Of a stretch of DNA of 64,000 bases, positions 36,602-42,295 are shown piece by piece. The notes under the pieces were generated by a model that ran no database searches, had not been told where the DNA came from, and worked only from the letters and a program-made list of their open reading frames with translations. Both the position numbers and the translations under genes were made by a program. The stretch's first letter is position 1, and the number at the start of each line of letters is the position of its first letter. The DNA is from Phanerochaete sordida (Eukaryota; Basidiomycota; Agaricomycetes; Polyporales; Phanerochaetaceae): the NCBI GenBank assembly GCA_019973155.2, contig BPQB01000003.1:558001-622000 (forward strand), read 5' to 3'.

Positions 36602-37846
36602 CTACGCGTCGCCGCCAATGGCATCACCAGAAGCCGAGTCTCCGCCAGTGCCAGCAGTGTCCGTGCCAGCGGCGTTGGTGATATCCGTGCCGTCGTCTGT
36701 CGCATTGATGACATCGCCTCCACGATCGTCACCAGTGGCGCCCGAGTACGCGTTACCGCCGCCGTTGCGGAACGGGGGAGGAGGCGGCGGGGGCGGGGCT
36801 ACGATGTGGATCAGCTGACGAACAACTCTCGTAGATCAGGTCACGTACGCGCACCACCATTGCCACCACCGTTAGCGGGCGGCGGGGGCGGCGGAGCCCC
36901 GTTTCCCGAGCCCGCGCCGCCACCATTGCCGCCTCCGGGGAAGTTGCCACCACCACCGTTGCCGTTATCCCCCCCACCGTTGCCGTTGTCCTGAACCTCT
37001 CCGCAAGGAATGTCTTCGCCGTTGCAGACGTCACCACCGTTGCCGTTGCCCACTGAGCCTGAATAGGCATTACCGCCTGTGCCGTTCGGTCCACCGTGTC
37101 CACCGAGGGCGTCACCAGAGGTGGATGCACCTCCGAGACCAGCAGTGTTGCCAGCAGTGTTGGTGATCTGGCGGCGAGTGACCTGGAACCGCCTGGCGTC
37201 GCCACCGATAGCATCGCCACTCGTGGTGGTGCGCCCGTTGCCGCCGGTGTCTGGAAGAGACATGCATGGTCAGCTGAACATCACGATTCCCAGATAGATG
37301 GCTACTTACTGGAGTTGGTGTTCGTAATGTCATTCGTGCCTTCGTTAGCGACGAAGCCACCATTGGCGTTCCCGGAGTGACCGCTGTACGCGTTACCAGC
37401 GCTGCCGAAGCCATCGCTGTTACCACCGATAGCGTCACCGGTCTGTGCAACACCGGCAAGACCACCAGTGTCTGTGTTATCCAAGATGGTGAGCGCGTGT
37501 GGGAGGTGCATAGGAGAGGCCACTCACTGGAGGCAGCGTTCGTAATCGCTTCGTTCTCATCGCCAGCTTCGTTCAGGTTCGAACCACCGGAAACGTCGCC
37601 GCTCGCACCACTGAAGGCGTCTCCGCCAGCCGTGCGGAAGTCCTCGACGCGACGCTCATGCTTGTGATGGTGAGTGGTGTGCTTGATTTCGCGAGTCGTG
37701 ATGGGGGTGTGGCCAGCAAGACCCTGAGCCGGGGCGGTGATGGCGCCGGCGGCAGGGAGGTTGGGGGAGGCGGGCGCGGCGCTGACCAGAGTTGGGCTGA
37801 CGGCGGCGGCGGCGAAGATACCGAAGGCGATGACGGGGCTGCGCAT
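36602..37846 (-). CDS. Secreted Gly/Asn-rich modular protein, paralogue 1 (GGNAYSG family)
   Basis: Unrecognised secreted protein of 359 aa. Exons are 37846-37528, 37471-37310, 37250-36849 and 36798-36602; all three introns are phase 1. It has a signal peptide (MRSPVIAFGIFAAAAVSPTL) and a His-rich propeptide-like stretch ending KHERR at residues 62-66. Modules built on SGDAxGG, GGNAYSG and GGxVxNxG follow. Dibasic pairs occur at 65-66, 180-181 and 186-187. After the first pair comes VEDFRTAGGDAFSG, the same pattern as in the two paralogues. The third exon also holds a GNGGG-rich run and polyproline on both sides of the last intron. The second exon is exactly 162 nt, as in paralogue 2. A secreted, Kex2-processed cell-surface or peptide-precursor protein is suggested; function unknown. 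Confidence 0.75.
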
Positions 37847-37949
37847 GCTGGCGGGGACTGACGAGTCGAGAATTAAAGAAAGATAGTACTGTACCGTCGA
37901 GGTGGAACGAAGGAGAAAGGTGGGCGAGGGAACAAGGAAACGCACGGGG

Positions 37950-37957
37950 CTTTATAT
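37950..37957 (-). promoter_or_regulatory. TATA box of paralogue 1
   Basis: ATATAAAG on the minus strand, about 104 bp before the ATG and followed by the same GCC as the counterpart at 38241. Confidence 0.55.
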
Positions 37958-38240
37958 GCCAGGACGTGCGATTCACATTCCGCTCTGTCTTCGCGAGCCT
38001 TTGGCTGCCCATCGGGGGGCCGAATGCAGCAGACCTGCCGTTTGCAGCGGTGCCAGAGCCCAAAGCGGCGCGTCCCCGGAGGCGCACGCCTGCGAAGCGT
38101 GCGGGCGCCAGCGCGTCAGCGAAGCACGTCCCAAAGCAGCACGATCTGTACCAAAACAGGCAAGTCTTCTCGTTCTGGACGTCGATGGTCAGCCAACGTC
38201 TCGAGAAGACGCAGCGGACCGCGAATGTCGTTTCCGATGG

Positions 38241-38248
38241 ATATAAAG
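38241..38248 (+). promoter_or_regulatory. TATA box of paralogue 2
   Basis: ATATAAAG about 116 bp before the ATG; mirror counterpart at 37950-37957. Confidence 0.55.
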
Positions 38249-38356
38249 CCTGCTGGGCCCCTCGTACTTTGCCCGCCTCCATCTCTCTTTTCTTCCCTCA
38301 AGACCCCTTGGTACACTACTATCCTTTAATCTTCAAGCCCGCCGCCAACCGCCACC

Positions 38357-39516
38357 ATGCGCAGCCCCGTCATCGCCTTCGGTATCTTCGCCGCCGCCAC
38401 CGTCGTCTCTTCTGCCCCCACCTCTCCCAACATTGGCGGTGGCTCCATGGTCCCTCACCTTCCGGTACCACCCACGGGCGCCCTCCCCGTCCCCGTCCCC
38501 GCCGCGCCCGTCAGACGGGCTGACGACGACGTCGTCCCCGCTCCCGTCGTCGACGAGCATCGTGATGGACACCGCGGCAGCACACACAAGCACCCCAAGC
38601 GCGCTTTGGACTCCGGCACTGCGGGTGGTAACGCGTACTCCGGAGGCGCTAGCACCTCCAGCGGCGGCAGCGTCGTCAACAACGGCGAGGACGGCCCCAA
38701 TGATACCATTACCAACGACACGGCTAGTAAGTCCTCCAACATGTCACGGTGCTCTGGATGTTGATTCCTTCGTTATAGACGCTGCCGGTATCGCCGGTAC
38801 TTCGGAATCTGGTGATGCTGTGGGCGGCCGTGGCCGCTTCCACGGTCCCGGTGGCAACGCATACACCGGCCCTACAGGCAACGCGAACGGAGGAGCGGTT
38901 GTGAACGACGGTGGCGCAATCGCGAACACGGCTGGCTCTAGTGCGTATTCGGTCTTCGCTCTTCTGCTGCTCTGATTAACATGCATTTGCAGACGTCGGC
39001 GGTGAGGGCAACGCTTCTGAGAGCGGGACCGCTATCGGTGGCGACGCGAGGCGCAAGCGTGCTGTCGACGCCCAGACTGCTGGTGGTAATGCCTACACTG
39101 GCTCCTCTGGGAACACCGGCAGCGGTAACATCATCAACGAGGCCGACGACGAGGCCACCATTACGAACGCCGCGGCCAGCAGTGAGTAGCAACGCATCTT
39201 GGTTTGAAATTTCGTCATCTCACTGCGTACACCACAGACACCGGAGAAGTCGCAGGCACTTCCACGACTGGTGACGCCGTAGGTGGCCTCGGTGACGACA
39301 AGGGCCCGGGCGGTAACGCCTACTCTGGCTACGCTGGCCCCACCCGCGGTGGCACCGTCGTGAACGATGGCGGCTCGATCAACAACGCGGGCATGTCCAG
39401 TGAGTGTCCAAATTGCCTCTTATCCATCTGTAGACTCATCGCTCCCTCAAGATGCTGCTGGGGACGGCAACGACTCCGTGAGCGGTGATGCCCTGGGAGG
39501 TGACGCGCGTCGCTGA
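38357..39516 (+). CDS. Secreted Gly/Asn-rich modular protein, paralogue 2 (GGNAYSG family)
   Basis: Secreted protein of 315 aa, not recognised. Exons are 38357-38726, 38779-38940, 38993-39181, 39238-39399 and 39452-39516. All four introns are phase 1 and the internal exons are 162, 189 and 162 nt, each encoding one module that starts at a split Asn codon. Signal peptide: MRSPVIAFGIFAAATVV. A Pro/Val-rich stretch, then a His-rich part ending HKHPKR (residues 77-82), leads to ALDSGTAGGNAYSG. A second site, RRKR at 197-200, leads to AVDAQTAGGNAYTG, and the protein ends GDARR. The modules share SGDAVGG, GPGGNAYxG and GGxVVNDGG. Dibasic sites placed before the same sequence suggest Kex2 processing into repeated peptides or domains. 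The surface or signalling role is unknown. Confidence 0.78.
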
Positions 39517-39940
39517 GTAGTTGACTCATGGTGGTTCGGAGATTATGTACACGCGCTATTCCCAATAATCATTCGTTCAGTTTGGAGGTATACAACCTTG
39601 CGAAAGCGCTGTTTAAAGCCGTGTGAAACTAGTCTCCGCTATGTTGCAGCGAGCCCAGCCAAGTGATGCGCCATAGCCCTAGTCGAATCACTTAGACGAC
39701 TTCTTCAGCCCAGTACTACACTAGACTCACGCAGTCTCTCTAACGAAATGTACAGCAGAGTCTATAGCCGGATCCGAAAGCACGAGAGACATTGCCCCTT
39801 TTCACGAGAGCTGATCGAGCGACACGTATACCAAGGCGATGAAAGAATGTCGAACGAGTGAACAAGCGCGAACTGATGCAGATGTCATTGAGCCGGCGGT
39901 GCCCAACATGATGCGAATGGTATCGTATGTAAAGACGAAA
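39517..39940. other. Convergent intergenic region
   Basis: About 420 bp between the 3' ends of paralogues 2 and 3. No gene or repeat was recognised. Confidence 0.35.
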
Positions 39941-40782
39941 TCACTGAGCCGATGCGTCAGGCGTAGGGTCGTGAGTACCATCCGAGTTTACACCAGCCCC
40001 TTCTGAGTACCCGGCCTCTGCACAGCCAGAACCAGATTCTCCAGCGTCGCCAGCGTTGTCTACCCAGCATGTCAGCCATGCAAAAGGCGGCGAGCACCAA
40101 GCATCACTCACTCGAGTCGACATTCATCATGCCGCCGGACCCGCTGACGTGCCCGCCAGTAGCGGAGCCACTGTCGCCGGACGAGGCGTTGCCTCCAGTC
40201 TTGCCGAGACCGCCGCTCGCGCAGCCAGTCGTGGAGCCGCCACCGCGCCCGCCGTTGTTCGAGTTGACGTTCATGAGGGTGGGCATCCCGCCGTTGTCGC
40301 CGGTGACGACGCTGCCGCCGTCGACGGCGCCCGCGGTACCGGTGTGTGCGTTTCCGCCGGTCGTCTGGCCGTCGTCGAGGCGCTTGGCATGGCTGGGGCG
40401 AACGTCAGTGCGAGGGCGACGCGCGAGAGGGAGCGTACTTACAAGGTACCAAGGACGCTATCATCCTTCTTCCAGAATTCGCGCACGTCCCGGCCGCTGT
40501 TGCAAAGTAAGACGCAGGTAGACGTTGTTGGAGGCTGGCAACATACCCGAGCGTGTAACCCATGACCGTCGCGACCTTGGGCTTCGAGGTCTGCGCGGCA
40601 GGCGGCTCTGCGCGGGCAAAGATGTCGTTGAGGAAGCCGAGGCCGCGTGTAGCGACGGTGTTCGAGCGGCGGTGCTCGAGGGTGGCGGGGATGTTCGAGT
40701 GCACGGGCAACGGGCTGCCAAGCACGGTCGGGCTGAGGGCCGAGACGGCGACGACGGAAAAGACGATGGCGGGGCTGCGCAT
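39941..40782 (-). CDS. Secreted Gly/Asn-rich modular protein, paralogue 3 (divergent)
   Basis: Third member of the cluster, 229 aa. Exons are 40782-40547, 40496-40443, 40392-40112 and 40059-39941. It begins with a related signal peptide (MRSPAIVFSVVAVSALSPTV). Dibasic HRR follows at about residue 38, then a helical, less repetitive part (GLGFLNDIFARAE, GRDVREFWKKDD) not found in the other two. HAKR at residues 98-101 precedes LDDGQTTGGNAHTG, matching the post-dibasic pattern of paralogues 1 and 2. Two GGNA-type modules follow (GKTGGNASSG, ATGGHVSGSGG), now with Cys residues (TGCASGG, SGCAEAG). Only the last intron keeps phase 1. It is probably an older duplicate. Confidence 0.7.
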
Positions 40783-41282: not shown

Positions 41283-42295
41283 TCAACCATTCGGTGTCTT
41301 GTTCGAGTCCGTCTCCGTGGGAGACAGAGTCCCATTCTTCGTCGTCGCAGACCCCGAGCTTCTCTTCGACTCCCCGTTTCCCGACGCTTGCTTTTCCAGC
41401 GGAGGCGCTTCACTCGTCTCGTCAGTGGAGATTGAGCCTTTCCTGGAATTTAGCATAGCTTGCTTCCGGGATTGCAGCTCCTCGTACAACTCGTTGGCCT
41501 CGTTCATCCTGTTGGCCTCGGCTTGCTTCGCGTCCAGCCACCGCTGAAGTAGTTTCGCGTTGTCCTTGATCAGGGTCTGGTTGCGCTCTTCAATCTGGCC
41601 CAGCTCTAGCTGGAGCGTATTGATCTCGTCGTGCAGGATCTACGGCACGGTGTAAATATTCCCACAGCCTGTTGGCTAGGACAGACACGGACCTGAGCAG
41701 TGCGATCTTTCTCCGACATGAGCTCGTTATGCTGGTCGACCTTCCGACGCAACACCGCAATCTCCTCCCTGCACTTCCGCAGGTTCTCCGACTCTATTCG
41801 CGACATCTCTTCCTTCTCCCTGAGAGTCTCTGTCATCGCGAGCAGCCGCTGCGCGTTCTGCCCTTGTGTCTTGTACACGGTGGCTAGTTCGTCGCGTAGC
41901 GATGATATCTGTGACTCCAGGGATGTGATGTATGCGGCCCTTACAGGGTTGCTGCTGTGGACTATGAGACAGTGACCCGCGCTTCGATTGGGCTACGCAC
42001 TCTTCTGCAGTTCCTGGGACGAAGACAGTCGAGCTACTTGGGTTCGCTCGGACAGTCCCCATTGCCCTGAGTAGCGATGCATTGCGTTCCTTCAGCAGCT
42101 TCGTCTGTTGTGCCAATCTGCGATCTTTTCAGCGTCCAGCAAACGGTATCAGGATAGTGCATAGCCAGAGTGCGGAGACATCACGCTAAAGAGCATGGAC
42201 GTACATTGCTCGATGATGGGAGAGTAGGCGGACTCCCTGGCGTTGCGCTCGACGAGCCTGATGCGGAGGGTCTCCTGCCACGACGGTTCACCCAT
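41283..42295 (-). CDS. atg16: Autophagy protein Atg16
   Basis: Coiled-coil partner of the Atg12-Atg5 conjugate that directs Atg8 lipidation to the growing autophagosome membrane. The protein has 277 aa without WD40 repeats, as in fungi. Exons are 42295-42205, 42124-42001, 41954-41693 and 41639-41283. The N-terminal Atg5-binding helix (WQETLRIRLVERNARES) is followed by a long coiled coil (ITSLESQISSLRDELATVY, LRKCREEIAVLRRKVDQHNE) and the diagnostic end of the Atg16 domain, NAKLLQRWLDAKQAEANRMN. The C-terminal 60 residues are Ser/Thr-rich and disordered. The gene is head to head with Ypt7, whose product acts later in autophagy; the start codons are about 260 bp apart. Confidence 0.9.

Follow-up and report, generated by a model that had tools for sequence, protein, structure and literature searches.

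The locus studied here raises the question of what three neighbouring genes of Phanerochaete sordida, a fungus of the wood-decay type, whose proteins share their first residues and a repeated GGNA module, give rise to, and whether their products are cut. The genes, designated A, B and C, lie within positions 36602..40782 of a stretch of 64,000 nucleotides (nt; the window; contig BPQB01000003.1, positions 558,001 to 622,000), in a genome of 222 contigs and 40.8 Mb with a GC content of 58%. An earlier note on this DNA had given the same outer limits, which were correct, and had thought of coating or signalling peptides, by comparison with Kex2-processed proteins such as repellents, pheromones and some precursors of ribosomally synthesised and post-translationally modified peptides (RiPPs). 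It had also placed Kex2-type sites ahead of the repeated module, and these are indeed present in all three spliced models. The sequences support the family and its Kex2-type sites well; that the three genes encode preproproteins belonging to an undescribed secreted family, from which Kex2 would release structural or coating units of the hyphal surface or matrix, is in our estimate about as probable as not.

Gene structures and dibasic sites

When GT..AG introns (50-59 nt) were spliced out by eye, three paralogous genes resulted, in the orientation minus, plus, minus. Gene A (36602..37846, minus strand; exons 37846-37528, 37471-37310, 37250-36849 and 36798-36602) runs from an ATG at 37846 to a stop codon ending at 36602 and encodes a precursor of 359 amino acids (aa); its introns (56, 59 and 50 nt) are all GT..AG and in phase 1. 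In the spliced model, an RR pair at 37649..37654 (minus strand) precedes VEDFRTAGGDAFSG, and an internal RR-FQVT-RR at 37171..37194 (minus strand) opens the second unit, which is N-terminally shortened. Gene B (38357..39516, plus strand; exons 38357-38726, 38779-38940, 38993-39181, 39238-39399 and 39452-39516) encodes a precursor of 315 aa with two complete units, and its introns (52, 52, 56 and 52 nt) are each in phase 1. As the earlier note had observed, this paralogue has the site twice, followed by an RR end: in the spliced model and the site count, a first KR (38597..38602, plus strand) precedes ALDSGTAGGNAYSG and an internal RRKR (39049..39060, plus strand) precedes AVDAQTAGGNAYTG. The mature units predicted from these sites would extend over 38603..39048 and 39061..39507 (plus strand), each crossing two introns, while the C-terminal RR (39508..39513, plus strand) might be trimmed off by a carboxypeptidase of the Kex1 type. 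Gene C (39941..40782, minus strand; exons 40782-40547, 40496-40443, 40392-40112 and 40059-39941) starts with an ATG at 40782, has its stop end at 39941 and encodes a precursor of 229 aa, in the spliced model of which a KR at 40380..40385 (minus strand) precedes LDDGQTTGGNAHTG.

The introns of A and B, uniformly in phase 1, are positioned at repeat borders; the internal exons measure 162, 162 and 162 nt, 189 nt with a Kex2 site inserted, and 402 nt in the case of A's long exon 3. All three proteins begin with MRSPVI or MRSPAI, in agreement with the MRSPxI starts reported earlier, followed by a hydrophobic stretch with an Ala-rich end (judged by eye), and are presumably secreted. There are two Cys in A, none in B and two in C. 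Six-frame scans of the window found the GG[ND]A motif in the A/B/C region and nowhere else.

Sites were counted in 54 complete proteins, i.e. A, B, C, a paralogue on contig C7 and 50 homologues chosen from 127 (complete-looking models, mainly from named species; fragments and models reading through introns were excluded). Unit starts are marked by a module D-x-x-T-x-GG-N/D-A (type I) with the dibasic pair just ahead of it. The pattern for unit starts had 99 matches, of which two (P0001 and P0004) were dropped as not being unit starts; starts that it did not recognise are outside the count. [KR]R stood exactly two residues ahead of the Asp at 81 of the 97 starts retained. A basic P1 was found at 14 others (single Arg 9, RK or KK 4, single Lys 1), and the last two (P0019 and P0023) had a single Arg one residue further off. 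Each unit also contains a second GGNA module (type II, G-x-GG-N-A), which makes more modules than the earlier note had listed, and none of the 93 type II modules had a dibasic pair within 8 residues upstream. A wider, redundant count on 130 proteins gave a dibasic pair at 145 of 172 unit starts and at 0 of 104 type II modules (with a limit of five residues). Of the 66 dibasic positions that followed the initial unit start in the 54-protein set, 54 coincided with a unit boundary and 3 with the C-terminus; the other 9 were in linkers or where A-type second units begin.

In an alignment of 21 two-unit proteins (A1), P1 was Arg in all 21 at both sites, P2 was basic in 20 at the first site and 21 at the second, and P3' was Asp in all 21 at both. 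The flank was freely variable, the commonest residue in the four columns upstream of site 1 reaching at most 9 of 21. Ala was the most frequent P1' residue (68 of the 99 pattern matches), and cleaved Kex2 sites of yeast are enriched in small and acidic residues at P1', P2' and P4' (PMC2515848). The genome contains a kexin, as shown by an exon with a P-domain and the end of a subtilase domain that matched kexin structures (E 5.3e-51). Sites at such a fixed spacing are strong comparative evidence for Kex2 processing, and actual cutting at the dibasic pairs is very probable. The pairs might instead be exposed linkers in proteins that act uncut, as would suit the related gene L035, which has no dibasic site; we hold this to be unlikely because the spacing is fixed and P1 Arg is invariant despite variable flanks.

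Also in alignment A1, MRSPVIAF was invariant in all 21 proteins and better conserved than the downstream pro-region, which is unusual for a signal peptide.

Several observations weigh against the release of coating units by Kex2. When the KR/D site of ScPir4 was changed to KR/A, it was no longer processed (PMC2515848), and Ala is precisely the commonest P1' residue in the A/B/C family. An exact [KR]R is missing at 16 of the 97 unit starts, and in P0019 and P0023, the relatives of gene A, a single Arg is all that is present. Because the homologues share ancestry, the site counts represent non-independent events; the contrast between type I and type II modules is nevertheless a fair internal control, since both sit in the same proteins. 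The related gene L035 (contig C20, from about 2437 on the minus strand) is also secreted and glycine-rich, with a similar repeat flavour, and its lack of a dibasic site indicates that the repeat in itself does not depend on cutting. Finally, the units differ from repellents in having no obvious amphipathic or hydrophobic character.

Predicted products and known secreted precursors

Cutting after KR or RR would yield pieces of the following lengths: 116 and 115 residues for B; 115, 6 and 172 for A; 128 for C; 117, 116 and 136 for the C7 paralogue. Unit lengths were measured in 47 proteins, starting at the Asp and ending where another unit or the end of the protein was reached: 71 of 84 units had 108-156 residues, 12 had 30-42 (in C-type relatives, as their first piece) and 1 had 238. 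In 72 units, the initial 90 residues contained 27.6% Gly, 11.8% Asn, 11.5% Ala and 10.7% Ser, with 1.6% Lys+Arg (and 1 dibasic pair) as against 11.4% in the pro-regions. A unit consists of two repeats of about 53 residues. C-type proteins have a single Cys per repeat, at a constant position in all 25 examined, and this shared place hints that the repeats may stack in register. Gene A has Gly- and Pro-rich stretches (PPPPPP and PPPPPPPPP) amid its last repeats (36753-36990), as do P0019 and P0023.

The short-peptide products proposed earlier do not agree with predicted main pieces of 115-172 residues, which, being longer than 100 residues, point to small glycine-rich proteins rather than short peptide signals. 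Signalling or pheromone-like peptides released by Kex2 would fit the signal-like N-terminus, the Kex2 sites and the repeats, which resemble alpha-type precursors (PMC6339444), and also the 30-42 residue first piece of C-type relatives (12 of 84 units). The main pieces are, however, of low complexity and common to paralogues, in addition to their size, whereas the usual size in surveys of filamentous Dikarya is 9-24 aa (PMC6339444). Moreover, a Ste13-like X-A/X-P signature was not the rule in the 130-protein count, which was no dedicated test. This makes peptide signals a rather improbable product.

Modified RiPP precursors of the dikaritin or ustiloxin type also combine Kex2-separated repeats with a signal-like N-terminus, but the units of the A/B/C family are much longer than cyclised cores. 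Furthermore, no UstYa/DUF3328 gene was found nearby: in an exon-by-exon search in which only the best candidates were scored, none of the 15 UstYa matches was on C3, the contig of the window, or on C7. The lack of a match on C3 speaks against a cyclised RiPP, and a RiPP-like precursor is thus extremely unlikely. The matches were on C4, C74, C26, C50, C10, C23 and C2, several of them close together on C26, C23, C74, C50 and C10; these groups are possible RiPP clusters.

Kex2-processed repeat proteins (KEPs) share with the A/B/C family a signal-like N-terminus and repeats separated by KR or RR in variable number (two in B, three in the C7 paralogue, one in some relatives); the family differs in that its units are few and longer than 100 residues. 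If KEPs are defined loosely, by several similar cores each after KR or RR, B belongs among them (116 + 115 aa), while C has a single core. The surveys asked for at least three repeats (Le Marquer 2019, PMC6339444; Umemura 2020, PMC7329392), in the latter case with none above 100 aa; A, B and C have one to two units and the C7 paralogue three, and with these limits on repeat count and length most members of the family fall outside. KEP peptides have been shown in Agaricomycetes, as have growth or fruiting defects in kex mutants, with none in six kep knockouts (Vogt 2022, PMC9769878). Coprinopsis KEPs are also known to be cut by Kex2 when expressed in Pichia pastoris (PMC9769878). Those derived from Coprinopsis cinerea KEPs are proposed to act on the biotic environment (PMC9769878), which would favour secreted proteins that serve in defence, act against microbes or mediate contact with other organisms. 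By composition, however, A- and B-type units have no cationic or Cys-rich core, and the six C. cinerea KEPs tested, which are other proteins, are described as having no antibacterial activity (PMC9769878); we give such a function little chance.

The repellents derived from Rep1 of Ustilago maydis are a precedent for coat peptides released by Kex2: from twelve amphipathic repeats of 34-55 aa come ten peptides with lengths of 35-53 aa and a longer one of 228 aa (PMC4617103). Rep1 and Hum3 resemble the A/B/C family in having Kex2 sites between the repeats of a secreted precursor and a proposed surface role. The family differs from Rep1, which was compared by description and not by sequence, in its units of 115-136 aa with 28% Gly; amphipathic repeats of 34-55 aa are not what we found in the wider set either (108-156 aa in 71 of 84 units; 27.6% Gly). 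Surface-active amyloid-like fibrils are a further mark of repellents. Hydrophobins are likewise small secreted fungal proteins, and a possible surface role is common to both, but their hallmark is eight Cys, whereas A, B and C have 0-2 and no Pfam match.

Glycine richness is shared with the polyproline type II (PPII) antifreeze proteins of springtails, and a structural aligner ranked 7jjv top for one predicted model. Ice-binding bundles of this kind are nonetheless very improbable for A, B and C: the units lack the G-X-X tripeptide repeat (Gly at lag 3 was below shuffles), a second predicted model was of low confidence and there was no sequence match. The likeness to springtail PPII antifreeze was rejected as unreliable after the second model.

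Proposed processing and role

From the computed gene structures, family, and conservation and placement of sites, we infer secretion, cutting, stacking, location and role as follows. Signal peptidase would take off the N-terminus, and Kex2 would cut past the conserved [KR]R to give between one and three mature units, which would be about 110-150 residues long and begin x-x-D-x-x-T-x-GG-N-A, from which a Kex1-type enzyme would remove trailing basic residues. The two repeats of a unit, rich in Gly, Asn, Ala and Ser, would stack in register, and the units would serve as structural or coating proteins at the hyphal surface or in the extracellular matrix. A structural or coating role, to which we give about even odds, is the most economical because of the abundant glycine, the low charge and the repeat stacking. 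By analogy, the best reading is that the units may work like repellents without belonging to them. More speculatively, and with considerable doubt, there may be a Polyporales-wide class of Kex2-released, stackable Gly/Asn-rich coat proteins, deposited on hyphae as two-layer in-register units and functionally equivalent to smut repellents, with a disulphide staple in the ATG16-linked C type; the tandem preproprotein would then keep self-assembling units apart until cutting in the Golgi.

If the proposed processing holds, bracket fungi and their relatives cut tandem precursors into small extracellular proteins that form a conserved class, and published surveys of repeat proteins would largely have missed it owing to their limits on repeat count and length. 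The family would also provide candidate Kex2 substrates behind the growth and fruiting defects of C. cinerea kex mutants (PMC9769878), a species in which it was not searched for, and its repeat architecture may suit materials work.

Relatives and neighbouring genes

With B as query, 51 proteins were found; a profile built from 23 of them gave 126 (120 listed), for 127 distinct proteins overall. Since scoring was restricted to the candidates sharing most words with the query (7989 for B and the profile, 7992 in a third protein search), families may be larger and wider than found. The named matches were 'hypothetical proteins' of genera including Irpex, Trametes, Fomes, Laetiporus, Sparassis and Cerrena, besides one labelled 'Cell wall protein' and two ATG16 models. 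Six of the species looked up belong to Polyporales, as presumably do the remaining genera, and Cristinia sonorae to Agaricales; the family thus occurs in many Polyporales, with a looser relative in one Agaricales species.

The earlier note had not recognised the family, and neither did our searches. A, B and C had no Pfam match up to E 1. Against the PDB, B gave 9mr0 (E 0.027) by sequence, and the A3 profile and P0010 gave compositional matches only; Foldseek found nothing below E 0.001 in PDB or BFVD. The available text of the KEP papers (PMC6339444, PMC7329392, PMC9769878) does not mention the family, their supplementary survey tables, which possibly list three-unit members, being outside its scope, nor was it found in literature on glycine-rich repeat proteins of secretomes. 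These results point to an undescribed family. Two papers that contain the literal motif 'taggna' are probably unrelated.

In a tree of 33 proteins (last 130 residues), A, B, C and the C7 paralogue fell into four orthologous groups. A joined Steccherinum and Antrodiella (95/91), on a long branch that makes its placement unsure, B joined Irpex, Cytidiella and Hermanssonia (93/85), C an ATG16-linked group (100/97) and the C7 paralogue a three-unit protein of Cytidiella (100/97). The 'cluster' described earlier is real in that three genes are adjacent, but is partly a matter of lineage, as these belong to three separate orthologous groups and C adjoins ATG16 in other Polyporales as well.

Elsewhere in the genome, the three-unit paralogue on C7 has internal exons of 162, 189, 165 and 183 nt, each in phase 1, C44 carries a divergent paralogue with TKR ahead of ADGGNARTG, and C1 a partial match. 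A search with L035 gave 17 proteins, including a Cristinia sonorae protein whose units are separated by HRKR and two Steccherinum proteins with TKR. Immediately upstream of the three-unit paralogue (L006:2280-3679, C7) is a gene for a secreted-looking protein (MRTSLIAYVLLAAS..), which has numerous repeats of the GGNGG type but lacks obvious Kex2 pairs. In the window, ATG16 exons adjoin gene C (41283..41992, minus strand; PF08614 matches in the window, P0066 and P0068). P0066 and P0068, from two other Polyporales, are single models that combine ATG16 with a C-type protein, and are likely to be neighbouring genes fused by an annotation error.
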